Shown piece by piece: positions 9,364 to 34,394 of a DNA stretch of 34,394 nt. The notes beneath the pieces are model-generated. The model worked only from the letters and a program-made list of their open reading frames with translations. It did not search any database and was not told where the DNA came from. Position numbers and translations under genes: made by a program. The number at the start of each line of letters is the position of its first letter. Position 1 is the stretch's first letter. Origin of the DNA: a virus; the IMG/VR virus record IMGVR_UViG_3300021347_000016, positions 1 to 34,394 of that record. One strand, written 5' to 3'.

Positions 9364-9407
9364 CATAAATGCAAGTGTTAAAAGATTTTAACAGCTAGTT
9401 CTAGGGC

Positions 9408-9477
9408 GACCACGCACAACATTAAATAGTTTAAGGCCAACTTTCTAGATTATTTTTTATTTATGCGTGGTCTTTTT
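9408..9477 (+). terminator. long-loop terminator-like hairpin with internal stems
   Basis: GACCACGCA (9408-9416) pairs perfectly with TGCGTGGTC (9464-9472), which is followed by five T. The 47-base interior contains a smaller stem (TTAAA-TAG-TTTAA). Just upstream are two more small hairpins (9377-9392 and 9395-9404). It follows the exported protein gene and may be its 3' end or a separate small RNA. Confidence 0.55.
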
Positions 9478-9549
9478 ATATTTACTCTGTTATAAATAAG
9501 ATTCGTATGTGCAAGAAATTTTGATATCTAAAAAGAAAGTTTTTGTGAA

Positions 9550-9585
9550 TGCCCTGTCAGTGAAGAATTAACAGGGCATTTTTTT
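9550..9585 (+). terminator. strong intrinsic terminator
   Basis: TGCCCTGT (9550-9557) pairs with ACAGGGCA (9571-9578) around a 13-base loop, followed by a run of T. It points along the plus strand and separates the exported protein unit from the structured region that follows. Confidence 0.8.
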
Positions 9586-9654
9586 ATTCAATCCAATTTT
9601 GTATATCATATCCACCCAACAAAGTATGCCCCTGTTGGAAGCAAATTCTGGCAT
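9568..9654 (-). CDS. possible 28-residue small protein opposite the structured RNA
   Basis: On the minus strand an ATG at 9654 is preceded, at eight bases, by AAGGAGG, one of the best ribosome binding sites in the window. The frame runs 28 codons and stops inside the terminator stem. However, both the binding site and the ATG lie in perfect stems of the structured region, so the match may be a by-product of RNA structure on the other strand. It would be the last gene of the minus-strand recombination operon if real. Confidence 0.25.
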   Translation of the reverse strand: MPEFASNRGILCWVDMIYKIGLNKKMPC

Positions 9655-9820
9655 ACTATATGCCTCCTTTTTGGAGAGAGTCCTTGTAGGACATAAAAGT
9701 AAAGGTGATAACTTTGCATTAAGCAAAGACGTAGCCCATAGTGGCCGTGTGTTCCGGCCTGGATAGTTTGTAGAATTTTCAATTTTGCAAGGTTTCACGA
9801 AGCTCCTTCCTTTAGGGAGG
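9616..9820 (+). ncRNA. candidate structured RNA with H-type pseudoknot
   Basis: A series of perfect stems. CCAACA (9616-9621) pairs with TGTTGG (9633-9638), and AGTATGCC (9623-9630) pairs with GGCATACT (9650-9657); interleaved, these make an H-type pseudoknot with loops of 1, 2 and 11 bases. Then come CTCC/GGAG (9664-9676), GTCC/GGAC (9680-9692), CTTTGC/GCAAAG (9712-9728), GGCCG/CGGCC (9743-9759) and CCTTCC/GGGAGG (9805-9820). The plus strand is favoured for two reasons: the short loop then crosses the deep groove, as in known pseudoknots, and the last stem has a U-G pair that would be a C-A mismatch on the other strand. I cannot match it to a known family, and its ends and promoter are not clear. 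Confidence 0.5.
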
Positions 9821-9826
9821 TGTAGA

Positions 9827-10099
9827 TCACTTAACGATTGAAAGTGGACTTAATATCCTTTTAATTTCATTAATATCAAGATTGGCCGTGGCCTTGGCAA
9901 TTTCTTCGTCAATACTTGGATCTTGAATCCATGCTGTATAATACTCAATAATGCTCAATGAAGTTTTAAGCTTAGCGGTATCTATAGCTTTAAAAATTTC
10001 GTGACTTTTTATAATCTCACAATATTCATCTATGGCCAACCATGCCTTATAGCGTGCGGCTTCTAATTCTTTTTTGTCTTTTTCATTTAACTTATTCAT
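9827..10099 (-). CDS. hypothetical helical protein
   Basis: About 90 residues, almost entirely alpha-helical by pattern (KELEAARYKAWLAIDEYCEI and on). The ATG at 10099 is preferred because GAAGG lies seven bases upstream and the start overlaps the end of the previous gene; an in-frame ATG at 10117 is an alternative. Last clear gene of the minus-strand operon that includes the RecT-like annealase. No family recognised. Confidence 0.6.
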   Translation of the reverse strand: MNKLNEKDKKELEAARYKAWLAIDEYCEIIKSHEIFKAIDTAKLKTSLSIIEYYTAWIQDPSIDEEIAKATANLDINEIKRILSPLSIVK

Positions 10100-11097: not shown

Positions 11098-12021
11098 TTA
11101 ATCCCTATTTTTTCCTAATAAATCGTTTAAAAAATCTAAATAAGCTTCTCTTTGCTCAAAATCTTTATCCTTCATTTCTTTAATATCTTTCATATTAAGA
11201 TTATCTAAAATTTCATTATACTTTTCTGTATTTTTTAAATTGTCAGTTAATATTTTAATAGCAGTCCAAATTTTTACACCTAATTCATTAAATTCTTTTT
11301 CAAAATTATCCTCTGTTTTTGGAGGATCAATTTTTTCGGTAGGTATTTCAGGGGGATTAATATTTTTTACTAATTTTTTTTCTTTTTTAATTTTATCATC
11401 GCCTTCATAGTCAACGCCCTTCATTTCTTCGCTTATATAGATTCCTGACAATGCCTCTGGAAATGCCCATCTAAAAGCATTTGCAATAGCACACTTTTCT
11501 AACATCAAGTAAGGTTTGTTTTTCCAGACGTAAGTATTTTGAGCAAATTCGGGGTACCTTGCTTTATACTCAATGACTTCTTCCATGTTTTTTCTTTTAA
11601 CCCAACAAGTCGAAACAAGAGTATCAATTTCTTTTCCTTTGTCAGGGCTGAAATATTTTTCTGATCTTGTTATTATCTTGAACCAATCCAGATTTCCCGT
11701 TCTAGATGCCTTGTCCATGAAAAATTGATACGCAAAAACTACATTGGCCGCTTGAATATACTGATTTGTACTAGGGTCTTTTTTGCTAGCAGGCACTAAG
11801 TAAATTTGGTTAAGTCTTGGGTCTGCACCTGTTAATTGGGCCTTTTTAACAAAGTCTACAAAATATGGAAGTGGAATATTTGGATTTTCTCTCGCTTTAA
11901 TCGCCAAGAAAGTCGGATCGGCTTTCCATAGGGCCTCTATTTCGTTACCTATTAATTCTTTTATCGCCTCAGGATTACTCGACAAGTCACCTGTATTTCT
12001 AACTAGTTCAAAGTTGCTCAT
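11098..12021 (-). CDS. bet: single-strand annealing recombinase, RecT/Bet family
   Basis: A 307-residue protein matching the lambda Bet/RecT family. The marks are the N-terminal FVDFVKKAQLTGADPRLNQIYLVPAS, the central FAYQFFMDKASRTGNLDWFKI and KPYLMLEKCAIANAFRWAFPEALSGIY at about residues 170-200. These proteins bind single-stranded DNA and anneal complementary strands in phage recombination and replication. The C-terminal 90 residues are Lys/Glu-rich and variable, as usual. Strong GGAGAG ribosome binding site. No exonuclease partner of the Exo or RecE type is recognisable nearby, which is unusual but not rare. Confidence 0.85.
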   Translation of the reverse strand: MSNFELVRNTGDLSSNPEAIKELIGNEIEALWKADPTFLAIKARENPNIPLPYFVDFVKKAQLTGADPRLNQIYLVPASKKDPSTNQYIQAANVVFAYQFFMDKASRTGNLDWFKIITRSEKYFSPDKGKEIDTLVSTCWVKRKNMEEVIEYKARYPEFAQNTYVWKNKPYLMLEKCAIANAFRWAFPEALSGIYISEEMKGVDYEGDDKIKKEKKLVKNINPPEIPTEKIDPPKTEDNFEKEFNELGVKIWTAIKILTDNLKNTEKYNEILDNLNMKDIKEMKDKDFEQREAYLDFLNDLLGKNRD

Positions 12022-12417: not shown

Positions 12418-13866
12418 ATGAAAAGTAGTGTAGTGATTAGTCGTTTAATACAAAAATGGAAGCTTGTGGACGATTTAAAGTACTTTAAAGTAGCAATGAG
12501 TTTAATTCTTGAGTCGGGGTCAACTGACAGGGTTTTCAGGGGACATAAAATAAAAAAAGGAGAGTCGATTTTTACGCTTAATTATTTAGAAAATAAATTT
12601 AAAAATACTAAACCGCAAATAACTAAAAGAAATATTAGAACTATCCTTAAAAATTTAGAAAAAGAAAAAATTATAACAAGGAGAGTTATAAAAGAGAAAA
12701 ATAAAAGCTTATTTACAGCGGTTAGCGTCATAGATCTTAATTTATGCAGTGTCAATGAAGCTAAAATAGATAAAAAAGAAAGCAATACAAAAAAATGTAT
12801 AAAGAAAATACAGAATGACGCACAAAATGACGACATATTGACTCACCAGATAAAAGAGTTTAATTCAAAAATTGCCACACTAAATTTAGAAGAAAACCAA
12901 GATATACAGGGTATTTACGTTGACGGTAAATACTTGACTGACACATTAAAAGAGATAAATCAAAGTTTAGGAAATAAAAAAGTAACGCATGTAATCAATG
13001 CACTTATAAATGACCTTGAAATCAAAAATAAAAGGGAAAATAAACAAAATAAACTTTTACACAGTACGCAAGGTGTATTAAAATGTGGAAAAAAACAGCA
13101 TATACTTGATAAAAGTACTTCATCTGTGGTTACAAAAGAAAATTTCCATGATAAAATATCAAACGAACCAACGCATAAAATCGGTCCTGCCAAAACAGAT
13201 AAGGATTCTTCGCTTACTCCCTCAAGAAATGATTTTCCTTATGAAAAAATAAAGAAAAAAATCAAAGAAAACCATACAGTGAAAAAAACAAACGATGCTA
13301 TAGAAAGTATCGTCATTTACAACCTGTGTCATATGAAAAAAATGGAACCAGTCCAGGCAGCGGCATATAGATCAACACATGACATTTCGGCATTTTGTTC
13401 AAAAGAAATCCACGAAACAATACATGCAATTTGTAGTTTAGTGATCCCATACTTTAATAGATTTAGCCCTAAATATAGATATAAGATAAGGTCTAACAAG
13501 AGTGAATGGTGTATATTAGAATGTTATTATTTAAAGAATTTAAGAGACCCAAAAGACTATATTGCTATAATTGACTATGCTTCCACCTTAATAATAGATA
13601 GATATAATCCAAATAAATTTTCTGTAAAAAATAATATCGCATTGAGTGAATATTTCACTCTTCAAACGATCTTTATTAACAAGGGACTAGAATATTTATC
13701 TCTCTCAGCAGAAAGAAATGAGACGCCCATAGTATTGCCGAAAAAAGACGACTTCACAGAGAGACTAGATCAGACATTGAAGGAACTAGAAGAAGAAGAA
13801 AAAAAGTTACAATTAGAAAAAGAGTTGAATTATCAAGAAGGGTTAAAGCTTTTAAATAAAAAGTAG
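12418..13866 (+). CDS. replication initiator-like protein with N-terminal winged helix
   Basis: A 482-residue protein. Residues 5-115 look like the winged-helix domain of phage replisome organisers: helices around FKVAMSLILESGS, then FTLNYLENKF, PQITKRNIRTILKNLEKEKIITRR and a strand pair. A long Lys/Asn-rich linker follows, then a helical C-terminal domain from about residue 290 (VYNLCHMKK ... AICSLVIPYF). The gene opens the plus-strand replication module, ahead of four loader-like proteins. By analogy with lambda O it would bind the origin, possibly inside this gene, but I see no clean iterons. The function is inferred from position and fold pattern. Confidence 0.6.
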   Translation: MKSSVVISRLIQKWKLVDDLKYFKVAMSLILESGSTDRVFRGHKIKKGESIFTLNYLENKFKNTKPQITKRNIRTILKNLEKEKIITRRVIKEKNKSLFTAVSVIDLNLCSVNEAKIDKKESNTKKCIKKIQNDAQNDDILTHQIKEFNSKIATLNLEENQDIQGIYVDGKYLTDTLKEINQSLGNKKVTHVINALINDLEIKNKRENKQNKLLHSTQGVLKCGKKQHILDKSTSSVVTKENFHDKISNEPTHKIGPAKTDKDSSLTPSRNDFPYEKIKKKIKENHTVKKTNDAIESIVIYNLCHMKKMEPVQAAAYRSTHDISAFCSKEIHETIHAICSLVIPYFNRFSPKYRYKIRSNKSEWCILECYYLKNLRDPKDYIAIIDYASTLIIDRYNPNKFSVKNNIALSEYFTLQTIFINKGLEYLSLSAERNETPIVLPKKDDFTERLDQTLKELEEEEKKLQLEKELNYQEGLKLLNKK

Positions 13867-13894
13867 AAAAAACGATGAAATTGTATTAATAAAA

Positions 13895-13920
13895 TTTATC
13901 GGCCCTAGGAAGCCGATAAA
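13895..13920. terminator. hairpin between initiator and first loader-like gene
   Basis: Nine-base-pair stem TTTATCGGC / GCCGATAAA around the loop CCTAGGAA. There is no T-run on the plus strand and only a broken one on the minus strand, so it may be an mRNA processing or partial termination element rather than a true terminator. Confidence 0.4.
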
Positions 13921-13960
13921 TAAAAATATATATGAAAAAATTTTAAGGATAATTCTACAT

Positions 13961-14548
13961 ATGAAAGATTCAATGTTTTGGCAAACACTATTTGATAGAG
14001 CAGAAAAATATTTTATAAATAGCATTCCAACGATAGATAGAATCGAAATCATAAAGATTTTCCATCGATCAACTGAGAATCAAATTATTAATATATTTAA
14101 AAAAACAATTGAGAGTAGAAAAATAGGTCAATCTTTTCCTGCACCATCCTATTTTTTAAATAAAGTCAATATACCTAAAGGAATTGATTGTAATATATGT
14201 GAAAGTGGGATCGTTTTTGCGAAGAATAAAAATCTAGATGGAGAGTTAGATTTAAATAGCTATAATATAAAATTTTATTGTAATTGCAATAATGGAGCAA
14301 TCGAAAAACGCAATGATGAGTTGGCAAATTGTTTACAAAAAATTTCTGTATGGGATGAAAGATACTTAAATGAATTTACTATAAGAAAATTATACTTGGA
14401 TAATTATTTCAAAACAAAAAAAGAAAAAAATGATTTTATGAAGGATTATTATTTACAAATAGACATTAAAGCAGCAAAAGCACAGAAAAAAAATTACACT
14501 GCCAAACATGCAAACTTCTATTTACAAGAAATAATAGATTTAATATAA
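13961..14548 (+). CDS. helicase-loader-like protein with zinc-binding C-terminal half
   Basis: A 195-residue protein. Residues about 28-68 (IIKIFHRSTENQIINIFKKTI ... FPAPSYFLNKV) follow the pattern R/H-x-Lx-x-I ... F-x-x-x-I-x-x-F...lP-s-x-x-I. The same pattern is seen in the three genes behind it and in the N-terminal domain of G39P-type helicase loader/inhibitor proteins. Cys77, Cys80 (CNIC), Cys107 and Cys109 (CNC) then form a probable zinc site, as in some primosomal proteins. It likely helps load the host DnaB helicase at the phage origin. AAGGA lies rather far (11 bases) from the ATG. The family call is from pattern memory, not a search. Confidence 0.5.
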   Translation: MKDSMFWQTLFDRAEKYFINSIPTIDRIEIIKIFHRSTENQIINIFKKTIESRKIGQSFPAPSYFLNKVNIPKGIDCNICESGIVFAKNKNLDGELDLNSYNIKFYCNCNNGAIEKRNDELANCLQKISVWDERYLNEFTIRKLYLDNYFKTKKEKNDFMKDYYLQIDIKAAKAQKKNYTAKHANFYLQEIIDLI

Positions 14549-14615
14549 ATTTTTTATTGAGTTATTGAGTAAAATAATATATTAAGGCCTTTGAAAGAAA
14601 AAAAGGCGGTTAACA

Positions 14616-14882
14616 ATGATCACAAAAGAAGACTATGGCCTAATGATAGAAGCTTTTGAAACAAATTTTGTAGAAAAATATAACAACAAAAGAAAAGAGA
14701 TTTTATATCAAGAGTTAATGCTTTTGGATTTACCAGAATTGACATTAACTTTAAAAAATTTATTGCTTAAATTTAATAAAAGTAACTTGCCAGTGTTGCA
14801 AGAAATTAAAAAAGAGGCCTATAAAATATGTCCATGGGTCATTGACCTAGAAGAAGAAGAAGGTCAAAAAAAGGCGATTTGA
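14616..14882 (+). CDS. G39P-like helicase loader/inhibitor domain protein, paralogue 1 of a tandem triplet
   Basis: An 88-residue acidic helical protein with the family pattern: an opening TKEDYGLMIEAFETNF, a central KRKEILYQELMLL, then LTLTLKNLLLKFNKSNLPVLQEI. The last part (L-x2-LL-x2-FN-x4-LP-x3-I) is shared with the next two genes and resembles the N-terminal domain of replicative helicase loader/inhibitor proteins. It lies four bases before the next gene. It may bind the host helicase or the neighbouring initiator. Confidence 0.6.
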   Translation: MITKEDYGLMIEAFETNFVEKYNNKRKEILYQELMLLDLPELTLTLKNLLLKFNKSNLPVLQEIKKEAYKICPWVIDLEEEEGQKKAI

Positions 14883-14886
14883 TTTT

Positions 14887-15153
14887 ATGATAAAAAGAGA
14901 AGACTATGATAAATACATGGATTATTTCGAGAAGCAATTTGATAAAAAGTTAGGTAAAACAAGAAAGGAGTTATTATATAGAAGAATCTCTTCATTTTTA
15001 GACGCCAAAGTTTTTGGAGAGTGCTTAGTCTCCGTCATTGAAAGATTTAACAGTAATGAGCTTCCAAGCGTTGATGTAATTGCGGACATGGCCATGGATG
15101 AAATGGCCTTAAATGAAAAAATAAAAAAAGATCAAATAAAAGAAAAAAGTTGA
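14887..15153 (+). CDS. G39P-like helicase loader/inhibitor domain protein, paralogue 2
   Basis: An 88-residue protein clearly related to its neighbours: KREDYDKYMDYFEKQF, then RKELLYRRISSF, then FGECLVSVIERFNSNELPSVDVI. Sequence identity to paralogues 1 and 3 is confined to the spaced pattern, so the duplications are old. It follows paralogue 1 by four bases without a strong ribosome binding site, so translation is probably coupled. Confidence 0.6.
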   Translation: MIKREDYDKYMDYFEKQFDKKLGKTRKELLYRRISSFLDAKVFGECLVSVIERFNSNELPSVDVIADMAMDEMALNEKIKKDQIKEKS

Positions 15154-15162
15154 GGTTGATAA

Positions 15163-15387
15163 ATGCAGAAAAAAGAATTTGAAAATGTAATAAGCTGGTT
15201 TATAAATGAATTTGATGAAGACTTGACGGAGCTAAGAAGACAAATGCTTTTTGAAGGCATAAAAGATATTTCTATAGATCAATTTTACTTAGGATTAAAT
15301 AGTATTATCCAAAAATTTAATAGAAAGAATATGCCGTCTATTGAAACAATTTTTGAAATTGTAACGGGTAAAAAAATGGCGTGTTAA
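15163..15387 (+). CDS. G39P-like helicase loader/inhibitor domain protein, paralogue 3
   Basis: A 74-residue protein with the same layout: KEFENVISWFINEFDEDL, then LRRQMLFEGIKDI, then FYLGLNSIIQKFNRKNMPSIETI. It lacks the longer charged C-terminal tails of the other two. GAGG lies seven bases before the ATG. Three short paralogues in a row may form a hetero-oligomer on the ring-shaped helicase; this is inference. Confidence 0.6.
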   Translation: MQKKEFENVISWFINEFDEDLTELRRQMLFEGIKDISIDQFYLGLNSIIQKFNRKNMPSIETIFEIVTGKKMAC

Positions 15388-15393
15388 TGGCCT

Positions 15394-15555
15394 ATGATAA
15401 AAATAATAATGCTCATTATAATAATATTAATTCCTATATCTGCCCTCTATGTATACTTAATAAATGAAAATAAATCGACTGATCCTTATTTGTTAATAAT
15501 ACATTTAATTTTGTGTATAGTTGGGTATAAATTATTAACAATTTATACAAAATAA
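15394..15555 (+). CDS. small two-helix membrane protein (holin-like candidate)
   Basis: A 53-residue frame with two hydrophobic segments (about residues 2-22 and 32-46) joined by a short polar turn (NENKSTDP) and ending in YTK. Size and shape fit a small holin or other membrane protein. No clear ribosome binding site is present. An overlapping frame from ATG 15387 (26 codons, with a CPLC pair) overlaps the previous stop and may be the translated one instead. In AT-rich DNA hydrophobic frames arise easily, so this is tentative. Confidence 0.4.
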   Translation: MIKIIMLIIIILIPISALYVYLINENKSTDPYLLIIHLILCIVGYKLLTIYTK

Positions 15556-15557
15556 AG

Positions 15558-15586
15558 TTGACTGCAACACAAAGTTATTGTAGTTT
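15558..15586 (+). promoter_or_regulatory. promoter candidate for the 15.66-15.94 kb RNA
   Basis: TTGACT starting at about 15558, 17 bases, then TAGTTT. The -35 is good and the -10 fair. It is the only sigma70-like pair I see with correct spacing between the replication genes and the structured RNA; the start of the RNA is not known. Confidence 0.35.
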
Positions 15587-15768
15587 ATTTTTAATGTATT
15601 TTCGTTTGTTTTAAATATATTGTGATTTGTTTTTGGAATATGAAATAGAAAGAGGAAGGAGAGTCTAAACCAACAAGTTGAGACAATTCTTTTTTGTGGG
15701 CGGTAGAAAATATTTATGTTTATATATCAGATTCGCCCCATTATTTTTTTACTGCCGATAGGCAGCGG

Positions 15769-15832
15769 TTAAAGACCTTTCAGAGGATAGAAAGTTTTTT
15801 CAAAAAACTTTGTTTAAAGACCTTTCAAAGGA
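15769..15832 (+). repeat. 19-bp direct repeat within the structured RNA
   Basis: Copies at 15769-15787 and 15814-15832 differ at one base (TTAAAGACCTTTCA then G or A, then AGGA). The start-to-start distance is 45 bp. The perfect hairpin of A/T lies between them. Confidence 0.85.
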
Positions 15833-15905
15833 AAATTTTTAGTGGGGTTGATCCGTGGTTATGTCTCGTTGTTGTTGATGAGAGACAAATGTTCCCCACA
15901 CCTAG

Positions 15906-15941
15906 ACCCAAGCAGATGACAAGTTGCTTGGGTTTTTTTTT
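15906..15941 (+). terminator. strong intrinsic terminator of the structured RNA
   Basis: CCCAAGCA (15907-15914) pairs with TGCTTGGG (15925-15932) around a 10-base loop, followed directly by nine T. This is one of the best terminators in the window. Confidence 0.9.
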
Positions 15942-15995
15942 GCCTAAACTCTCCTATAAATATATACTCTTTAAAAAATAAAAAAGGGTGTATAT

Positions 15996-16250
15996 ATGAT
16001 TTTCACTGATCACGACGATCAATCCGTATCAATAAAATTAAACCAAAAAGAATTAACAATTTTATTAATGTTAATAGAAAGCAGATGTCTCACTGCACGT
16101 AAATACATGGCCAGAAAAAAAGAATTTAGGGATGAATTTACAAAAACAAAAAATAAAATTTTAGTGCAATGGCAAGAAGAAATAGATCTTTACTTGCAAA
16201 AAAATTCTGTAAAGATTACTGGCAAAATGTATGAGAATCAGGGGATGTGA
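15996..16250 (+). CDS. hypothetical protein, first of a cluster of small genes
   Basis: An 84-residue protein with a short beta start (QSVSIKLNQKELTILLMLIESRC) and a long basic helix (ARKYMARKKEFRDEFTKTKNKILVQWQEEIDLY). The ribosome binding site is AAGGG, seven bases upstream. One base separates it from the next gene. Not recognised. Confidence 0.6.
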   Translation: MIFTDHDDQSVSIKLNQKELTILLMLIESRCLTARKYMARKKEFRDEFTKTKNKILVQWQEEIDLYLQKNSVKITGKMYENQGM

Positions 16251-18430: not shown

Positions 18431-18657
18431 AGGAGGGAATTATGAAAAAATCAATAAAAAAAGGTAAGGTTTTTGCCCTAAAACCAGGTGTTAAAATAAA
18501 AATTGTTGAGTTGGCAGAGGGATTTACAGAAGGTCATAATGGCCGTTATTGGGTTAGAATTATGGAAGGTGAGTATAAAGGATTACACAGGGGGGAAGAA
18601 ACATTACTAGGCGTTAAAACGATCAGAAAATATCTTAAATAGGAGGGAATTATGAAA
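18431..18657 (+). repeat. 17-bp direct repeat of ribosome binding site and start codon
   Basis: AGGAGGGAATTATGAAA occurs at 18431-18447 and again at 18641-18657, once before the 18442 gene and once directly after it. The repeat covers the complete ribosome binding site, the ATG and the first Lys codon. Confidence 0.95.
18442..18642 (+). CDS. small basic beta-rich protein
   Basis: A 66-residue protein with five predicted short strands (GKVFALKPGVKIKIVELAEG, NGRYWVRIMEGEYKGLH, VKTIRKYLK), the pattern of a small SH3-like or KOW-like barrel; it could bind RNA or DNA. It has the strongest ribosome binding site of the window (AGGAGGG), which together with the promoter and the terminator points to high expression. 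A copy of the same 17-base site follows directly after its stop codon. Confidence 0.65.
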   Translation: MKKSIKKGKVFALKPGVKIKIVELAEGFTEGHNGRYWVRIMEGEYKGLHRGEETLLGVKTIRKYLK

Positions 18658-18666
18658 GAAATTTAA
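18652..18666 (+). CDS. possible four-codon minigene (Met-Lys-Glu-Ile)
   Basis: The second copy of the strong ribosome binding site is followed by ATG AAA GAA ATT TAA, and the stop lies in the terminator stem. It may be the leftover of a deleted paralogue. A translated minigene, like the two-codon bar minigenes of lambda which drain peptidyl-tRNA, is the other possibility. Whether it is translated is not known. Confidence 0.35.
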   Translation: MKEI

Positions 18667-18689
18667 GGGCCTAACGGCCTTTTTTTTTT
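18665..18689 (+). terminator. strong intrinsic terminator
   Basis: Stem AAGGGCC / GGCCTTT with loop TAAC, then T-run to 18689. It ends the unit with the 18442 gene and the minigene. Confidence 0.9.
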
Positions 18690-18757
18690 GCCATTTGCAC
18701 AAATTACAAAAATATTCAATAATATACTTATAGAAATTAAATTTTATGGGTGTATTT

Positions 18758-19799: not shown

Positions 19800-20465
19800 A
19801 TGGAAGTCCAAATAAAATGCAAAGAAAGAATAGAATTAGTCGATCCAAAAACTTTAAAAAAACATCCTGACAATAATAATATACACACAGATGATCAACT
19901 AGAAAGATTAATAACCATTATAAAAGAAAATGGTTTTACAAGCCCTATCACTGTTTCAACTAGAAATAATTGTATCACAAAAGGTCATTTACGATTAGAC
20001 GCTGCTTTGAAAATGGAATTAAGTCAAGTCCCTGTTATTTACAATGATTATAAAAATGAAAAAGATGAATACGCAGATCTAACCGCAGATAATGAAATCG
20101 CAAGATGGTCAGAATTGGACAGAAAAAAAACAATAAAAAAAATAACTGAATTAGAAAGTAGTGGGGATAGATTTAATTTAGACCTATTAGGCGTAAAGGA
20201 CACTTCTATATTTCAAGAAATGGAAGCACAAAGTCAGGCGTTTCAAGATGAAATGAATAGTAATTATGACGATGATATCGGTATAGAACCCGATGACGAT
20301 GATTTTATTGTTGATGATAAAAAGGTTAAGGAAGTTAAAAGCAGAGAAGACATTAAAGATAAGTACATTATTATTGTTGAATGCGATAATGAAATAAAAC
20401 AAGAAAATCTTTTTGAAGAATTAAAAAGAAGAAATTACAAATGTAAAATAATGAGTGACCTATGA
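19800..20465 (+). CDS. ParB/Srx-fold N-terminal domain protein
   Basis: A 221-residue protein. Residues 10-115 are a ParB-like N-terminal domain: VDPKTLKKHPDNNN, then LERLITIIKENGFTSPITV, then KGHLRLDAAL (62-70), the counterpart of the GERRxxA box of ParB proteins. Phages often place this domain next to, or fused to, a DNA methyltransferase, as here: the genes overlap by ATGA. The central DNA-binding helix-turn-helix of true partition ParB is not visible, and the C-terminal part is acidic and unlike the ParB dimer domain. So it is probably not the protein that reads the parS-like sites in this phage. The start at 19800 is set by AAGGAAG. Confidence 0.7.
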   Translation: MEVQIKCKERIELVDPKTLKKHPDNNNIHTDDQLERLITIIKENGFTSPITVSTRNNCITKGHLRLDAALKMELSQVPVIYNDYKNEKDEYADLTADNEIARWSELDRKKTIKKITELESSGDRFNLDLLGVKDTSIFQEMEAQSQAFQDEMNSNYDDDIGIEPDDDDFIVDDKKVKEVKSREDIKDKYIIIVECDNEIKQENLFEELKRRNYKCKIMSDL

Positions 20466-21514
20466 TCAAAGGTCTAACTTTGCCTTATACTGGCAACAAA
20501 AGCGGTATTATACATAAATTAAGTAAGTGTTTTCCAAAAACAGAAAACTTTTATGATATTTTTGCCGGAGGATTTGCCGTAACAAGTTTTATGATAGCAA
20601 ATCATTATAATAAGTATTCTAATTTCTATGCAAACGACATCAACCCTATGACAATTGATCTTTTTAAAAGGGCGGTTAGCGGAGAGTTTAACCCAAAGAT
20701 TTTTACGCCTAAGTGGATTTCAAGAGAAGAATTTGATTTAAAAAAAAATACAGATTCTTATATTAGATACTGTTGGAGTTTTGGGAATAATGGAAAGACT
20801 TATCTGTTTTCAACTGACATAGAAGAATATAAAAGATCTATGCACCAGGCCGTTGTTTTTGATGAGTTTAATGATCTAGTTAAAGAGTCATTAAAAATAA
20901 ATAAATGGCCGTTAAAGTGTAATTCTATCTATAAAAAAAGATTATATCTGAGAAGAAAAATAGAATATTATAGAATTAATAATTGCTTGCCAAAAGTTTT
21001 GTGGAATTTTTTAAGTAAAAGTCAGTTAGAACAATTAAAAAAAATAAATCTGAATCAATTAGAGCGATTACAGCAATTAGAGCGATTACAGCAATTAGAG
21101 CGATTACAGCAATTACAGCAATTACAGCAATTACAGCAATTAGAGCGATTACAGCGATTAGAAAATAAAACTCTCCAAGATAGAATAATAACAAAACTTG
21201 AAATTACAAATTTGGATTACTCAAAAATAGATATAAAACCAAATGCAGTAGTTTACTGTGACCCTCCATACAAAGAGACTTTTGGTTATGGTGTTAACTT
21301 TAACACGGAAAAATTTTTAGACTGGGCAGATTCATTAAACGAAATTGTCTTTATATCTGAATACAATATAAGCGATAAAAGATTTTCTTTATTCTGGAGC
21401 AGTAGCAAAAGATGCACGTATTGTAGTGGAGAAGGAAATTCAGAAGCAAAAAACAAACTTGTAACCGAAAAACTTTATATAAATAAATACGGAAAAAACA
21501 AATTAATGAGCTAA
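20462..21514 (+). CDS. dam: D12-class N6-adenine DNA methyltransferase with tripeptide repeat
   Basis: A 350-residue protein of the Dam/D12 class: YTGNKSG near residue 9 and FAGGF (motif I, S-adenosylmethionine site), and YCDPPY (Asp267-Tyr270, motif IV, catalytic). It methylates adenine, GATC being the usual target of the class, and may protect phage DNA or control packaging. Residues 200-232 are an unusual run of eleven tripeptides (LER, LQQ) encoded by 9-bp tandem repeats, placed between the target recognition part and motif IV. Start overlaps the previous stop (ATGA). It lies upstream of the terminase genes. Confidence 0.85.
   Translation: MIKGLTLPYTGNKSGIIHKLSKCFPKTENFYDIFAGGFAVTSFMIANHYNKYSNFYANDINPMTIDLFKRAVSGEFNPKIFTPKWISREEFDLKKNTDSYIRYCWSFGNNGKTYLFSTDIEEYKRSMHQAVVFDEFNDLVKESLKINKWPLKCNSIYKKRLYLRRKIEYYRINNCLPKVLWNFLSKSQLEQLKKINLNQLERLQQLERLQQLERLQQLQQLQQLQQLERLQRLENKTLQDRIITKLEITNLDYSKIDIKPNAVVYCDPPYKETFGYGVNFNTEKFLDWADSLNEIVFISEYNISDKRFSLFWSSSKRCTYCSGEGNSEAKNKLVTEKLYINKYGKNKLMS
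21059..21157 (+). repeat. 9-bp coding tandem repeat (11 units)
   Basis: Eleven in-frame units TTA-SAG-CRA (TTAGAGCGA or TTACAGCAA and one mixed form) encode Leu-Glu-Arg or Leu-Gln-Gln. The unit is a multiple of three, so slippage would change length but keep the frame. It lies in the middle of the methyltransferase. Confidence 0.95.
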
Positions 21515-21525
21515 GGGAGGCAAGG

Positions 21526-21906
21526 ATGCCAAAAGGAAAAGGAAGACCGTCAATTTTTGACGACCCTAAACGGGACTATGAACTAAAGCAATTAATGAGA
21601 TTAAGACCGACATTAAAAGACTGTGCTTCATTTTTTGACTGCCATACAGACACTATTGAAAAGTATATAAAAAGACAATATAAAATAAAATTTTCGGAAT
21701 TTCGTGAAACGCATATGGTTCACACCCGATTTAATATTATTAGAGCATTGTTAAAAACGGCAGAAGCAGGCAATGTAAAAGCGATCGAATTGGCACTTGG
21801 ATATTTTCTAAAATGGCAAAATAAATTTGAAGTTAAGTCGGATGGAAAAATAGATATTAAGTATAATATTGTACAAAATAAATCAGACTTAGAAAATGAA
21901 TCATAA
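21526..21906 (+). CDS. terS: terminase small subunit
   Basis: A 126-residue protein. Residues 1-15 are basic (PKGKGRPSIFDDP). A helix-turn-helix-like part follows (LRPTLKDCASFFDCHTDTIEKYIKR), then a helical oligomerisation region (VHTRFNIIRALLKTAEAGNVKAIELALGYF), as in many small terminase subunits that bind the packaging start site. A strong GGGAGG site precedes it. Its end overlaps the large subunit gene by 11 bases. Confidence 0.75.
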   Translation: MPKGKGRPSIFDDPKRDYELKQLMRLRPTLKDCASFFDCHTDTIEKYIKRQYKIKFSEFRETHMVHTRFNIIRALLKTAEAGNVKAIELALGYFLKWQNKFEVKSDGKIDIKYNIVQNKSDLENES

Positions 21907-23122
21907 CTTAAACCTTTTACAAGGGCAGTATGATTTTATAACAAGTGATGCAAAAAAATCTTTATTACTAGCAGGTATAGGCTATGGTAAAAGTTTTTCG
22001 GGATCTCATTTTTTATTAAAAATGCTATCTGAATATCCAAAAGCAAAAGGATTGATCACTGCAAATACCTATACTCAACTTATAAATGCAACCCTGGAAT
22101 CATTTATTGGAGAGTTAGACCATTTAAATATACCCTTCAAATGTATTTTGGGCGGAGCAAAAAAACATATAAAAATATTTAATACAAAATTATATCTTTA
22201 TTCTTTAGAACGCTATGACGCAATTAGGGGAATTGAGGTAGGTTACTGGTGGTCAGATGAGTCGGCATTTGCGAAGCACGAGGCGATACAAGTTTGTAGA
22301 GGGCGATTGAGAGATAGAAATGGTCCCCTGTATGAAAGACATACTACAAGCCCCAACGGTTATAACTGGACATATGAAGAATTTGAAAATAAAGACGGCA
22401 AAAACAAAAATAAGAAAATCGCACTTTTTAGAGGGATCACAAAAGATAACATTTTTTTACCAGAGGGTTATTATGATTCTCTTTTAGAAGACTATGGAGG
22501 TATTAATAACCCTCTTGCAAAACAAGAATTGTTCGGTCAATTTGTTAATCTACAAAGCGGTGCGATATATTGGGCGTTCGATAGAAATATACATGTAAAA
22601 CCATTTACTCCAAATAGATCTTTTCCTGTTTATGTAGGACAAGATTTTAATATAGATAATATGGAAGGTGTATATATACAGTATATAAGTGGTGTTTTTT
22701 ATTGCTTTCAAGAAAATATTTTAAAGCATCACGGGGCAAACACGGACGCAGCGGCCTCTAAAATATGTAATGATTTAATTCCAAAATATAATGTTATTGT
22801 TATTCCAGACTCTACAGGTAAGGCCGTTAAAACTTCCTCAAGTGGGTCTGACATTGAAATTCTTAAACGATATGGTCTCAATGTGGCAACAACAACAAAT
22901 CCTTTTATAAGAGACCGTCAAAATACAGTTAACATATTACTGAAACAGGGTAGAATAATAATTGATCCGTCATGTACGAATTTAATTAAAGAATTTGAAA
23001 CTATATCATCAAGGGATAAGGAAGGCGATAAGGCACATGCAAGTGTTGCCCTTGGTTATGTAGTTTATAAATTAGAACCTCTAAGGCAAAAAAAGAAACA
23101 ACAAAGGACTGTCAGACTATAA
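21896..23122 (+). CDS. terL: terminase large subunit (ATPase and nuclease)
   Basis: A 408-residue protein. GIGYGKS (27-33) is Walker A, YWWSDES (Asp121, Glu122) Walker B, and TTSPNG the coupling motif. Nuclease part: VGQDFN (Asp250) and PDSTGK (Asp305). The third acidic position, usually in a HASDALGY-like motif, is HASVALGY here, with Val384 in place of Asp. It pumps DNA into the prohead and cuts it. The valine means a neighbouring acid (EGD at about 376-378) must serve, or the nuclease differs. A parS-like palindrome begins one base after its stop. Confidence 0.85.
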   Translation: MNHNLNLLQGQYDFITSDAKKSLLLAGIGYGKSFSGSHFLLKMLSEYPKAKGLITANTYTQLINATLESFIGELDHLNIPFKCILGGAKKHIKIFNTKLYLYSLERYDAIRGIEVGYWWSDESAFAKHEAIQVCRGRLRDRNGPLYERHTTSPNGYNWTYEEFENKDGKNKNKKIALFRGITKDNIFLPEGYYDSLLEDYGGINNPLAKQELFGQFVNLQSGAIYWAFDRNIHVKPFTPNRSFPVYVGQDFNIDNMEGVYIQYISGVFYCFQENILKHHGANTDAAASKICNDLIPKYNVIVIPDSTGKAVKTSSSGSDIEILKRYGLNVATTTNPFIRDRQNTVNILLKQGRIIIDPSCTNLIKEFETISSRDKEGDKAHASVALGYVVYKLEPLRQKKKQQRTVRL

Positions 23123-23123
23123 A

Positions 23124-23139
23124 TGTTCCACGTGGAACA
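23124..23139. promoter_or_regulatory. parS-like site 1 (perfect 16-bp palindrome)
   Basis: TGTTCCACGTGGAACA is a perfect palindrome and identical to a chromosomal parS sequence known in proteobacteria (the bacterial consensus is TGTTNCACGTGNAACA). It lies in the 36-bp gap between terminase and portal, one base after the terminase stop. A 16-mer like this is not expected by chance in 34 kb of AT-rich DNA. Confidence 0.8.
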
Positions 23140-25641: not shown

Positions 25642-26247
25642 ATGGAAAATGAAAATGGCACTAACGTTAGTGACGATAATGTCAATGAAAATGGAACAGC
25701 TAGTGGCGTCCAAGAAAATGGGAATGTTTCATATACTACTTACAAAAAAACTTTAACGCAGCTTAAAAACCTTCAAGAAAAACACAAGCAAAGTGAACAT
25801 TTACTTGGAGAGTTTGAAAAAAAAGAGCAAGAATCAGAAAAAAAGCGGTTAGAGGAACAAGGAGAGTATAAGAAATTATTGGAAATGGAACGTCAAAAAA
25901 TCGGGCAATATGAATCTGAACGAGATGAATATAAAAATAGATTAATAACGGCCCACAAGTTAAATGCTTTTACCGAAAAACTTCCTTCCAAGATTTCTAA
26001 ACCTCAATTTTATGATCACATTCCTTTAAATGATATTGTAATTGATCCTGAAACTGGAATAGTTGATGAAACAAGTGTTAACAATGCAGTTAACTTTTTT
26101 GTTAAAGAATATCATCAACTTTTAGAACCGACTGGCAAACCGTTGCCATCCGACTCTCCTTCGGGATCGGGACAATTGTCGTATCAACAATGGTTGAAAC
26201 TGCCTGTGAAAGAAAAAAGGGCAAGAATAAATGAAGTAATAGATTAA
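25642..26247 (+). CDS. capsid scaffolding protein
   Basis: A 201-residue protein directly before the major capsid gene. The first 25 residues are Asn/Gly/Asp/Val-rich, followed by a long charged coiled coil (LTQLKNLQEKHKQSEHLLGEFEKKEQESEKKRLEEQ). A C-terminal helix-loop region (QQWLKLPVKEKRARINEVID) is probably the capsid-binding part. Scaffold proteins shape the prohead and leave before or during packaging. Good AAGGAG site. Confidence 0.75.
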   Translation: MENENGTNVSDDNVNENGTASGVQENGNVSYTTYKKTLTQLKNLQEKHKQSEHLLGEFEKKEQESEKKRLEEQGEYKKLLEMERQKIGQYESERDEYKNRLITAHKLNAFTEKLPSKISKPQFYDHIPLNDIVIDPETGIVDETSVNNAVNFFVKEYHQLLEPTGKPLPSDSPSGSGQLSYQQWLKLPVKEKRARINEVID

Positions 26248-27448: not shown

Positions 27449-27856
27449 ATGGCCGTTTTAAGTGACGCTCAGACAATTTCGGCACCTTTCGGAAATGAAG
27501 TAAATTACGTTAATGTAGTTTATGATTTTTCTGTAGACGGAGGTGCTGCCGCTGATTACACAGTACTAACAGCAGATGGATCTTTACTTGTAGAATTAAT
27601 TTGTTGCGACGTAGAAACTCAAGTAACAAGTGGTGGAGCAAATGTAAATGACCTTGGAAAAGGAGCAGGCGGTACCGAGTTTTGGAGTGACCAGGCCGTT
27701 GCAGGATTTACAGCAGACGCACAGTTAATAGCAGACACACCAGGAACAATAGTTGAACTGGCCAACGCCGAAACAATTGTTTTTGGCATTGAGACCGCAG
27801 CTATTACAGCAGGAAAGGTAACTTTTAAATTTAAAGTTTTTAAAAGAGGAAAATAA
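27449..27856 (+). CDS. head decoration or accessory protein candidate
   Basis: A 135-residue beta-rich protein with many Ala, Gly, Val and Thr residues (TISAPFGNEVNYVNVVYDFSVDG, VELANAETIVFGIETAAITAGKVTFKFKVFKRG). Position and composition fit a structural protein on the capsid surface. The gene is followed by a hairpin and two parS-like sites. No family was recognised. Confidence 0.5.
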   Translation: MAVLSDAQTISAPFGNEVNYVNVVYDFSVDGGAAADYTVLTADGSLLVELICCDVETQVTSGGANVNDLGKGAGGTEFWSDQAVAGFTADAQLIADTPGTIVELANAETIVFGIETAAITAGKVTFKFKVFKRGK

Positions 27857-27873
27857 TTTTTTAAAAATATATT

Positions 27874-27912
27874 ATGTGAACTATTTATTTACCCTTGATT
27901 GATAGTTCACAT
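27874..27912. terminator. long inverted repeat (possible terminator)
   Basis: ATGTGAACTAT (27874-27884) is perfectly complementary to ATAGTTCACAT (27902-27912), with 17 bases in between. Only a short T-rich stretch follows (TTTAATT), so termination is probably incomplete. It would reduce transcription from the capsid genes into the neck genes. Confidence 0.45.
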
Positions 27913-27917
27913 TTAAT

Positions 27918-27933
27918 TGTTCTACGTGGAACA
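27918..27933. promoter_or_regulatory. parS-like site 2 (15/16 to the palindrome)
   Basis: TGTTCTACGTGGAACA differs from site 1 by one base (C to T at the sixth position). It begins five bases after the inverted repeat and 38 bp ahead of site 3, which is identical. Confidence 0.75.
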
Positions 27934-27955
27934 TTTTGAAAAATGATTTTTTAAT

Positions 27956-27971
27956 TGTTCTACGTGGAACA
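27956..27971. promoter_or_regulatory. parS-like site 3 (identical to site 2)
   Basis: TGTTCTACGTGGAACA with the same flanks as site 2 over about 26 bp (TTTAATTG before, TTTT after), so the pair arose by duplication. Seven T follow, then the ribosome binding site of the 27992 gene. A short RNA hairpin with T-run is an alternative reading for this copy alone. Confidence 0.75.
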
Positions 27972-27991
27972 TTTTTTTGTAAGGAATGAAA

Positions 27992-29896
27992 ATGTCTTTG
28001 CCTCCACATATAAATGATAGAGTAAAAGAAAGTTATGTAACAGTTGGATCAAGGGATTCTGTGCAACAAGTTTTACCAGTAAGCGGAGCAGGCGATACCT
28101 TAGACATAGATTCAACTGGTCAACTTGAGGTCGTTTTATCGGGTTATGTAGATGATAATAATAGTTCATCCACACCTTTGAGTGCAGGAGCAACGTTTAC
28201 AGGGACAAAAACCGAAGTTATTGATTATGGTATAATTTATGTAAATGTTTATTCTGACGTTGCAAGTGCATCCGACGGCCTCGAAATTCAATTTTCTAGT
28301 GACGGTGTAACGTGGCGTGGAGGGCTTGGGGATACATTTACAATAAGTGCAAATCTAGATAAAACATTTTCCTTTCAGGCACATAAAAAATACTTTAGAG
28401 TGCTTTATCAAAATGGTGGAAGTGATCAAACGTCATTCGACTTGCAAACAATTTTAAAAAAGGTCAATGGAAAGCCTTCAAGTCACAGAATTCAAGATTC
28501 AATTTCTGAAGAAGACGATGCCGAATTAGTTAAGGCCGTTATCACTGGAGAAAATGCAAGTGGAAATTTTGTAAATGCATCACTGACTAACGGTGGAAAC
28601 TTTAAAGTATCATTAGAAGAATTAGAATCAGGCGTTAGTGTAAACAGTAATTCACAATTGAAAATTACTCAATTTGATTCTTCTGGAAATGAGTTATTTA
28701 CAGGTGATAAGCCTGCAAGAGTAGATTTCCCCCCAACCTATTTTGATATTTTTGGAAAATTTGAGACCGCAGCACCTTACAAGCTTTATGAATATAGTGC
28801 TGGTTATCCTTTAGACACAACAAGATACATTGATACATTAACCTCTGGTAGTGGAACCGTTGTTAGAAATGCAACAAAAACACAAATTGAATTTACAACA
28901 ACTACCGCAAGTGGTGACAGAGCATTATTTCAGACAAGAAGAAATATTCAGTATAATAAGGCAAATGCTCAACAAATATTTTTCATCTATAGACCTAACC
29001 CACTAACAAATAGAAGAGAAAGATTTGGACCCCACGATGATAACAATGGAACCTTTTTTGAAATTGAAGGATCTAACGTTAATATAGTTGTTAGATCTAA
29101 TACTAGCGGTAGTATTGTTGACACTAAATTTGCTCAAGCAGATTGGGACGACCCATTAAATGGCACTGGAGCAAGCGGAAAAACTATCGACTGGACAAAG
29201 CAAATAGTTTTCAAAATTGAATTTGGTTGGCTTTCTTCAAGGGGAATAAGATATTTTATTGATATTGAGGGGGATATAATATTAGTAAAATCTTATTTTG
29301 TATCAGACACATTAACAGTGCCTTATTTTGCAGTCCCTACACTTCCTTTTAGAGTCGATGTAGAAAATATAAATACAACTGCACAGACACAAGTAAACTC
29401 TCTTTCTTGTATTGCATTTTTATCATCGGGAGCGCAACAACAAGAAGGCCCTATTAGAAATATTTCTTCTGATACAACGGCAGTCAGTGCATCGACCACG
29501 GAAACAATTGTTGATGGCATTAGATTAAATTCTTCTTATCTCAATGGATCATTACAACCGATAAGATTATCCATATTGCCTGCCTCTGGAAATACTTTTT
29601 TACGATATAGATTAAGATATAACCCAACCCTAACAAGTGCTGTATGGGCCACAGGGACAGGAATTCACGATACATTAACGTCAGTATCCAGTTTTACAGG
29701 TGGCGACATTATATTAAGTGGAATTGTTGCATTGAGTAACCAAGCAACGCAAGCGTCAATTATTTCAGAATTGAAAGAGGACGTCTATGTCGGTCGGGAC
29801 GCTTCCAATAACCCTGACGCTTTAGTTTTAACCGTTGAAACCACCTCTAGTTCTGGGACTTTACATTATGATTTTGACTTTAAAGAATATATTTAA
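27992..29896 (+). CDS. large head/neck structural protein
   Basis: A protein of 634 residues. The ATG at 27992 is chosen because AAGGA ends six bases upstream; the ATG at 27986 touches that site. The protein is beta-rich with many Ser, Thr, Gly and Asn residues (TGTKTEVIDYGIIYVNVYSD, FQAHKKYFRVLYQNGG). A middle part, about residues 250-500, looks like a concanavalin-like or jelly-roll domain. It is probably an external decoration or a neck whisker-like protein. Gene position between capsid and tail completion genes supports a structural role. Family not recognised. Confidence 0.5.
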   Translation: MSLPPHINDRVKESYVTVGSRDSVQQVLPVSGAGDTLDIDSTGQLEVVLSGYVDDNNSSSTPLSAGATFTGTKTEVIDYGIIYVNVYSDVASASDGLEIQFSSDGVTWRGGLGDTFTISANLDKTFSFQAHKKYFRVLYQNGGSDQTSFDLQTILKKVNGKPSSHRIQDSISEEDDAELVKAVITGENASGNFVNASLTNGGNFKVSLEELESGVSVNSNSQLKITQFDSSGNELFTGDKPARVDFPPTYFDIFGKFETAAPYKLYEYSAGYPLDTTRYIDTLTSGSGTVVRNATKTQIEFTTTTASGDRALFQTRRNIQYNKANAQQIFFIYRPNPLTNRRERFGPHDDNNGTFFEIEGSNVNIVVRSNTSGSIVDTKFAQADWDDPLNGTGASGKTIDWTKQIVFKIEFGWLSSRGIRYFIDIEGDIILVKSYFVSDTLTVPYFAVPTLPFRVDVENINTTAQTQVNSLSCIAFLSSGAQQQEGPIRNISSDTTAVSASTTETIVDGIRLNSSYLNGSLQPIRLSILPASGNTFLRYRLRYNPTLTSAVWATGTGIHDTLTSVSSFTGGDIILSGIVALSNQATQASIISELKEDVYVGRDASNNPDALVLTVETTSSSGTLHYDFDFKEYI

Positions 29897-32988: not shown

Positions 32989-34394
32989 TAATTGACATCG
33001 AAGCAAGAAATAAAAAATTTAATCAAAATATTGATGAGTCAATTTCTAAATCTGAAAAGTTAAAAGAAACTTTGACAGGTGTTGCCACTGTGTCAGGTGC
33101 CGCATTCGCCGGATTAACAGCAGGAATTGGAGCGGCAGTAAATGAAGCAATTAAAATAGAGCAAATTAATACTCAATTTGAAGTTTTAACAGGTTCAGTC
33201 TTAGGAGCAGAAAAGGCCGTAAAACAACTACAAGATTTATCGGCAACAACACCATTTTCATTTGAGGAAGTGGCCAGTGCAGGCAAACAATTACTTGGAT
33301 TTGGATTTTCCACGGAAGAATTAACAGACAGGTTAAAAGAGTTGGGCAACGTTGCCGCTGCCTCTGGATCACCTGTTAATGACCTTAGTTTAATTTATGG
33401 TCAGGTTGCCGCAGCAGGAAAATTAACTGGAGAAAGATTATTACAATTACAAGAAAGAGCAATCCCTATAGGCCCTGCTATTGCAAAAACTTTAGGTGTT
33501 GCAGAAAGTGCAGTAAGGGATTTAGTTTCTAAAGGAAAAGTAGACTTTGATACTTTTCAAACGGCCTTTGCTTCACTCTCCAAAGAGGGTGGTTTTGCAT
33601 TCGGTGGATTGGAAAAGCAATCCCAAACTTTAGGTGGTCAAATTTCAACTTTAAAAGATAATTTTAAATTAATACTAGTTGAAATAGGCAATAGATTCTT
33701 ACCTGTATTAAAGCAAGTCACAGCGTCATTCATAGAATTTTTTCAAAAATTAAGAAATAATCCAGAATTAATTGACACAGCGGTTAAAATTTTAAAAATT
33801 GCAGCGGTTACAACTGGACTTATAACAGCAGTATCAACTGCGGTCATAGTGTTTTTAAAACTAAAAGCTGTGTTAGTCGCAACTGTGGGCGTGTTAGGTG
33901 CTATAGGTGGTTTTCTTAGCTCTCCTATAGTGATAATCGGTGCCTTGGTTGCTGCGGTGGTCGGATTAGTGACTGCATGGGATTCTAATCTTTCAATAAT
34001 GGAAAATATAACCGAAAATTTTTGGTTAAGAATAAAAACTTTATTCGGTGGGATAAAAAATATAATTGCATCGGCCTTTAGTTTTGACATACAGGGAATT
34101 AAAGATGGACTTGAAGAAGCAAAGGCCGCTTTTGCCTCAAGTGCCGATGAAGTCCAGAAAAAAAGAGATCAATTGGCCGAAAAACAACAACAAAGACGAG
34201 ACGCAGAAGTTGAGGCCGAAAGAAATAAAACTGCATTATTAGAGCAAGAAGAAATTGAAGCAGATCAAAGAAAATTTCAAAGAGAAGAAGAAAAAAGACA
34301 AGCTGTGTTAGAAAAAAAACTAGCAGAAGCAGAAGAAGACGCCCAAATACAAAGAGAAATAGATGATATTAAAATTAAGCAGGGCATTAGTTTA
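32973..34394 (+). CDS. tape measure protein, N-terminal part (continues at base 1)
   Basis: First 474 codons of the tape measure protein; the frame is open at the end of the window and continues across the circular join. The start ATG lies inside the chaperone gene's end. LKETLTGVATVSGAAFAGLT, LSATTPFSFEEVASAGKQLL, ASGSPVNDLSLIYGQVAAAGKLTGERL, TLGGQISTLKDNF form the tape measure core region seen in many siphophages. A hydrophobic stretch (about residues 270-335) may cross membranes during ejection. The last part is a charged coiled coil. Confidence 0.85.
   Translation, partial: MAEKLVIDIEARNKKFNQNIDESISKSEKLKETLTGVATVSGAAFAGLTAGIGAAVNEAIKIEQINTQFEVLTGSVLGAEKAVKQLQDLSATTPFSFEEVASAGKQLLGFGFSTEELTDRLKELGNVAAASGSPVNDLSLIYGQVAAAGKLTGERLLQLQERAIPIGPAIAKTLGVAESAVRDLVSKGKVDFDTFQTAFASLSKEGGFAFGGLEKQSQTLGGQISTLKDNFKLILVEIGNRFLPVLKQVTASFIEFFQKLRNNPELIDTAVKILKIAAVTTGLITAVSTAVIVFLKLKAVLVATVGVLGAIGGFLSSPIVIIGALVAAVVGLVTAWDSNLSIMENITENFWLRIKTLFGGIKNIIASAFSFDIQGIKDGLEEAKAAFASSADEVQKKRDQLAEKQQQRRDAEVEAERNKTALLEQEEIEADQRKFQREEEKRQAVLEKKLAEAEEDAQIQREIDDIKIKQGISL
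34253..34394. repeat. right copy of terminal redundancy
   Basis: Matches bases 1-142 with one mismatch at 34379. Removing one copy gives a circle of about 34,252 bp. The reading frame of the tape measure gene is preserved across the join, which supports true circular continuity. Confidence 0.9.

Follow-up and report, generated by a model that had tools for sequence, protein, structure and literature searches.

To our knowledge, few small RNAs of phages redirect host regulation, and most examples come from enterobacterial and vibrio phages. An intrinsic terminator with a U tail is a feature of Hfq-type RNAs. Phage lambda encodes PreS, a trans-acting RNA of the early region that is located between ea10 and ral, and the tabulated sizes of phage small RNAs are about 88 nt for PreS and about 50 nt for VpdS (PMC12197685). 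Here we describe, in a phage from an AT-rich, little-studied group, a segment that, very probably, specifies a compactly folded non-coding RNA with a classic transcription terminator at its end. The proposed RNA (15695-15941, plus strand, about 247 nt) would resemble lambda PreS/LPR1 and VP882 VpdS in being a small early-region or accessory phage RNA, and it carries a predicted U-tailed intrinsic terminator of the Hfq-type kind.

The window, i.e., the whole stretch of DNA that was analyzed, is a 34.4-kb virus record from a phage (34,394 nt), and it is a fragment because an open frame still runs past its right end at 34394. It encodes a large terminase subunit (TerL, 21896-23122), a RecT-like annealing protein (11098-12021, minus strand), RusA-like, SprT-like, and ParB_N-domain proteins, and a D12-type DNA methyltransferase. 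The best similarity of TerL to a named phage is only about 29% identity, which indicates that the phage group is poorly sampled. Relatives were sought with TerL, a 482-aa protein, and the SprT-like protein, and one was useful for the region discussed here: L002, the nearest relative found, with a TerL 77% identical. No TerL match was detected in GTDB genomes, and consequently no host or prophage was found there.

Several features of the window lie outside the RNA locus. An exact parS-type site, TGTTCCACGTGGAACA, is present at 23124-23139 and has the same sequence as the chromosomal parS of Bdellovibrio bacteriovorus (PMC10547168) and the parS of Pseudomonas putida (PMC7022226). A near-identical pair of palindromes, TGTTCTACGTGGAACA, is found at 27918 and 27956, giving three parS-like palindromes of the form TGTTCYACGTRGAACA in the window (23124-23139, 27918-27933, and 27956-27971) against 0.3 expected; the degenerate pattern is also matched twice in L002 (4763-4778 and 14512-14527). 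Judged by these matches, ParB-binding sites of the host type may be present in the phage and conserved in L002, and such sites in a phage may outrank the RNA in interest. The D12-type methyltransferase (20462-21514) contains an internal low-complexity run (RLQQLERLQQLQQLQQ...) that is shared with its homologue in another phage sequence (L003, 4565-5491). The sequence AGGAGGGAATTATGAAA occurs at 18434-18458, before a 66-aa ORF (18442-18642), and again at 18642-18664, just past the ORF, where the second copy opens a frame of 4 codons (ATGAAAGAAATTTAA) with a terminator behind it; we read the pair as a possible small duplication or vestigial gene start.

The genome is tightly packed, and just two of the gaps in the window exceed 240 nt. 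The gap that holds the proposed RNA (15556-15995, 440 nt) separates a 53-aa ORF (15394-15555) from an 84-aa ORF (15996-16250), and its G+C content of 0.32 compares with 0.13-0.30 in the other listed gaps, the exception being 9364-9826 (0.36). A function for the gap is favored because a functionless gap would be costly in a tightly packed genome. The genes upstream (12418-15555) run in the same direction right up to the gap. They include three small paralogous ORFs in a row (14616-15387; 88, 88, and 74 aa), to which a single ORF in L002 (101-310) is related. The longest gap, 9364-9826 (463 nt), lies between convergent genes and contains terminator-like hairpins near 9409-9475 and 9551-9586. A hairpin-rich segment (9590-9835; z -2.4 on the plus strand, -1.5 on the minus strand) ends with CACGAAGCTCCTTCCTTTAGGGAGGTGTAGATCAC, which resembles the right end/omegaRNA hairpin of IS200/IS605 TnpB elements. 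Rfam gave nothing for this gap at E≤0.5, and none of the proteins scanned was recognized as TnpB.

The sole long open frame across 15556-15995 (15694-15981, 95 aa, TTG start) runs through the terminator of the proposed RNA. Its codon score of -0.14 falls in the wrong-frame range, whereas neighboring small genes score at least 0.00 and large genes 0.03 to 0.28. A coding reading was therefore rejected on codon usage, and because the frame also crosses the terminator, 15695-15941 is best taken as non-coding.

The fold was predicted from the single sequence, using the partition function and with dinucleotide shuffles as controls. It is unusually stable: z is -3.33 for 15658-15941 and -3.62 for 15695-15941, for which none of 150 shuffles folds equally well, and the sub-segments 15695-15900 and 15728-15855 give -2.6 and -4.0, respectively. 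The full-length RNA has one dominant structure, in which 50 pairs exceed a probability of 0.8; shuffles average 27 such pairs, and 12 of 120 get to 50. The closing helix P1 is formed by TGTGGG (15695-15700) and CCCACA (15895-15900), with pair probabilities of 0.93-0.95. Between P1 and P2 is a long, mostly unpaired A+U-rich strand (15701-15729), which holds most of the motif GGCGGTA. P2 consists of 13 pairs between GATTCGCCCCATTA (15730-15743) and TAGTGGGGTTGATC (15840-15853), with probabilities of 0.90-0.97 and a single mismatch (15734/15849). The P3 hairpin, CTGCC-GATA-GGCAG (15752-15765), has a pair probability of 0.97. P4 (15776-15786/15821-15831) has inside it a hairpin formed by AAAGTTTTT and AAAAACTTT (15791-15811; probability 0.91). 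The P5 hairpin (15862-15887) has alternative registers with probabilities of 0.36-0.58, so that its register is uncertain.

P4 is built from a 19-nt repeat, TTAAAGACCTTTCARAGGA, present at 15769-15787 and 15814-15832 in copies that are 18/19 identical; none of 100 window shuffles gave two matches, and a search of the window allowing up to 3 mismatches gave no further copy. Each copy holds the quasi-palindrome CCTTTCARAGG, and for this reason the copies pair together, CCTTTCAGAGG of copy 1 providing the 5′ strand of P4 and CCTTTCAAAGG of copy 2 the 3′ strand, with a C-C mismatch mid-helix. The minus strand of the segment gives a similar z (-3.9), and we favor the plus strand because the terminator and the orientation of the genes on either side point to it. 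A coarse scan in steps of 200 nt shows other sites in the window with equal or lower z, e.g., 27801-28000 and 26001-26200, some of them within genes. Since z alone is not distinctive, the case for an RNA rests on the long non-coding gap, the stable nested fold, and the terminator combined.

The intrinsic terminator (15904-15941, plus strand) consists of a 12-bp stem (15904-15935) followed by a T run, corresponding to a U9 tail, and has a z of -5.93. On the other side, an AT-rich lead-in (15556-15694, plus strand) extends from the 53-aa ORF to the RNA and would hold the promoter if the RNA were independently transcribed; it includes a weak hairpin followed by a T run (15652-15695, z -2.15). Six promoter-like sites were observed against 3.6 ± 1.8 expected. 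One of this class, which is not above chance, begins at the terminator tail (TTGCCT-17-TATACT, 15940-15968, plus strand, 9/12 consensus) and possibly serves the downstream small-gene cluster. An imperfect inverted repeat brackets the RNA, with a left arm AGGAGAGTCTA (15657-15667, plus strand) and a right arm TAAACTCTCCT (15945-15955); AGGAGAGTCTA resembles a Shine-Dalgarno sequence, and near-matches to it are over-represented in the window. An earlier note, made from the letters of this DNA, had described a structured non-coding RNA with a textbook terminator and a repeated 19-base element in a non-coding gap. The anatomy supports this description well (fold z -3.3 to -3.6, terminator z -5.9, two repeat copies, 440 nt with no convincing frame); the promoter candidate that the note placed upstream is not distinguished from chance by the site counts.

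To identify the RNA, the window was compared with Rfam (4227 families), which gave no match anywhere in it at the gathering cut-off, and a permissive search gave as its best match OmrA-B (RF00079; 22 bits versus a cut-off of 40, E 0.085). Both searches agree with the previous observation that the RNA fits no known family. Membership of OmrA-B was rejected as a chance match, some of the stem pairs being broken. BLASTN against phages and against plasmids returned short chance matches only. Exact patterns for the repeat, one P2 strand, and the gapped P2 helix matched IMG/VR sequences about as often as a rough chance estimate, with unrelated flanks, and two of these matches were discarded because they lie within protein genes, as the codons for "...KDLSK...". 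A pattern and model search of GTDB produced chance matches, and a single-sequence covariance model run over related and pattern-derived loci matched only itself. Thus no relative of the RNA emerged from collections that may lack the very closest ones.

In L002, the downstream 84-aa gene has a homologue (1903-2169, 37%). Upstream, L002 encodes a small-protein paralogue, with an alignment score of 63 (shuffles reach 44 at most), and a possible but weak membrane-protein counterpart, whose score of 50 equals the shuffle maximum. The stretch bounded by the apparent counterparts of the two flanking ORFs contains three protein genes and has no long gap. By this alignment of neighbors, the RNA is absent from the apparently equivalent slot of L002, which is incomplete upstream and so may carry the RNA at another place, and the element looks accessory because that slot carries three protein genes without the RNA.

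We propose that 15695-15941 encodes a small structured phage RNA of about 250 nt, accessory and probably trans-acting, a reading to which we give an even chance. The RNA would occupy a variable site flanked by the replication-side genes and by the next small early-gene cluster, and would be ended by its own intrinsic terminator, with one compact dominant fold and not a switch. Stability, and perhaps an end for chaperone binding, would come from the terminator hairpin with its poly-U tail and from the nesting of P1, P2, and P4; the A+U-rich strand 15701-15729 and the P5 loop would be the sites of contact with an RNA or protein of the host or phage. The RNA is inferred to be transcribed, from a putative 5′ end near 15695, to act in trans, and perhaps to bind a chaperone. 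Cargo of an accessory kind is favored because the L002 slot holds protein genes instead.

The single stable fold, the terminator, the non-coding frame, the G+C content, and the promoter-like site past the terminator were counted in favor of a small RNA. Counted against it were the lack of a relative in any search, and hence of covariation and of any sign of selection on the fold, the promoter count not above chance, the similar z of the minus strand, and the other window sites that fold as well. Most base-pairing phage sRNAs are also smaller than about 250 nt. Matches of the open strand to phage gene starts are weak and AU-rich, reaching -13 kcal/mol with the next gene, a value without a background control. 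It is very improbable that the locus founds a new class of structured phage RNAs, one that acts on a host machine through the nested P1/P2/P4 fold (e.g., as an RNA polymerase, chaperone, or defence decoy), and no novelty is demonstrated past an orphan small RNA. If transcribed, it would be a phage RNA of no assigned class, an optional cargo at an early-gene position that is occupied by protein genes in a related phage, and an example from an AT-rich, little-studied phage group would widen the sampled diversity of phage small RNAs.

Because an independent promoter for the RNA is not supported, the main rival is that the early operon has a structured 3′ end here: the segment would be just the tail and terminator of the 12418-15555 mRNA, protecting its end and insulating the next unit, and would not act as a free RNA. 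The co-directional upstream genes and the strong terminator with a promoter-like site directly after it are consistent with this, and the arrangement of a gene, a terminator with a T run, and a TTGCC-type -35-like site recurs at 18665-18716. However, the segment contains about 210 nt of extra stable structure, with sub-segment z of -2.6 and -4.0, far beyond what a terminator needs, and the other operon ends in the window have gaps of about 100-130 nt. We consider an operon 3′ end a serious but unlikely explanation.

It is improbable that the locus is instead a DNA element in which the dyad-like 19-bp repeats, 45 bp apart, are binding sites of an operator or origin iterons. The quasi-palindrome in each repeat, the AT-rich flank in a setting near replication-type genes, and the similar z on both strands would fit such an element, but there are just the two copies, and they pair together inside a larger nested fold. 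Furthermore, the G+C-rich P1-P3 and the terminator would be left unexplained, and no neighboring gene matched a replication family in the libraries tried.

A cis-acting leader or attenuator, either riboswitch-like or with a leader peptide (a 26-codon TTG frame, 15678-15761), could control read-through into the cluster that starts at 15996. The terminator is 54 nt ahead of the next start codon, an SD-like AGGAGAG is present upstream, and GGCGGTA has successive partners as the 3′ end of the transcript extends: the 15730s, TACTGCC (about 15750-15756) when the end is near 15761, the 15730s again, and finally the arrangement in which P1 and P2 take over (partner 15895-15900). The alternative pairing of GGCGGTA described in the earlier note is thus real, but the switching RNA is not supported: the refolding is no more than in shuffles, with 18 transient pairs where shuffles average 21.5 (66 of 120 have at least 18), and the full-length RNA has one dominant fold. 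The best upstream competitor for the terminator arm reaches -8.9 kcal/mol versus -17.7 kcal/mol, so no antiterminator segment of a terminator-type riboswitch or attenuator was found upstream. We rejected a regulatory switch on the prefix folding against 120 shuffles and the lack of a serious rival to the terminator arm. The leader role that had also been suggested becomes less likely because the promoter-like site 15940-15968 begins at the terminator tail, ahead of the next gene, and that gene is kept in L002 without the RNA; overall, a cis leader appears quite improbable. A type III toxin-antitoxin-like unit, in which a repeat RNA and its terminator precede a toxin gene, is scarcely credible: the order of repeats, intrinsic terminator, and ORF is shared with ToxI-like antitoxin RNAs, but the repeats here are just two in number and pair together, and the 84-aa downstream ORF has no recognizable toxin identity (no ToxN/CptN/TenpN-type toxin, PADLOC, or Pfam match) and has an L002 homologue without repeats.

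Among other known RNAs, a CsrA/RsmA sponge of the CsrB/RsmZ type was rejected, as 15695-15941 contains only two GGA motifs, with the G-G of both inside helix P4, and a retron ncRNA was rejected because no reverse transcriptase match was found among the neighboring ORFs scanned. The likeness to OmrA-B consists mainly of the terminator hairpin and U tail. There is a loose likeness to 6S RNA (RF00013 and relatives), with a closing helix, a large A+U-rich bubble, a hairpin in the 3′ strand of the bubble, and an inner helix; the Rfam 6S families gave no match to the RNA even at E≤10, and it differs from 6S RNA in having a closing helix of just 6 bp and a branched inner part. Compared with PreS and VpdS, the proposed RNA is larger, at about 250 nt, and is folded into multiple nested helices.
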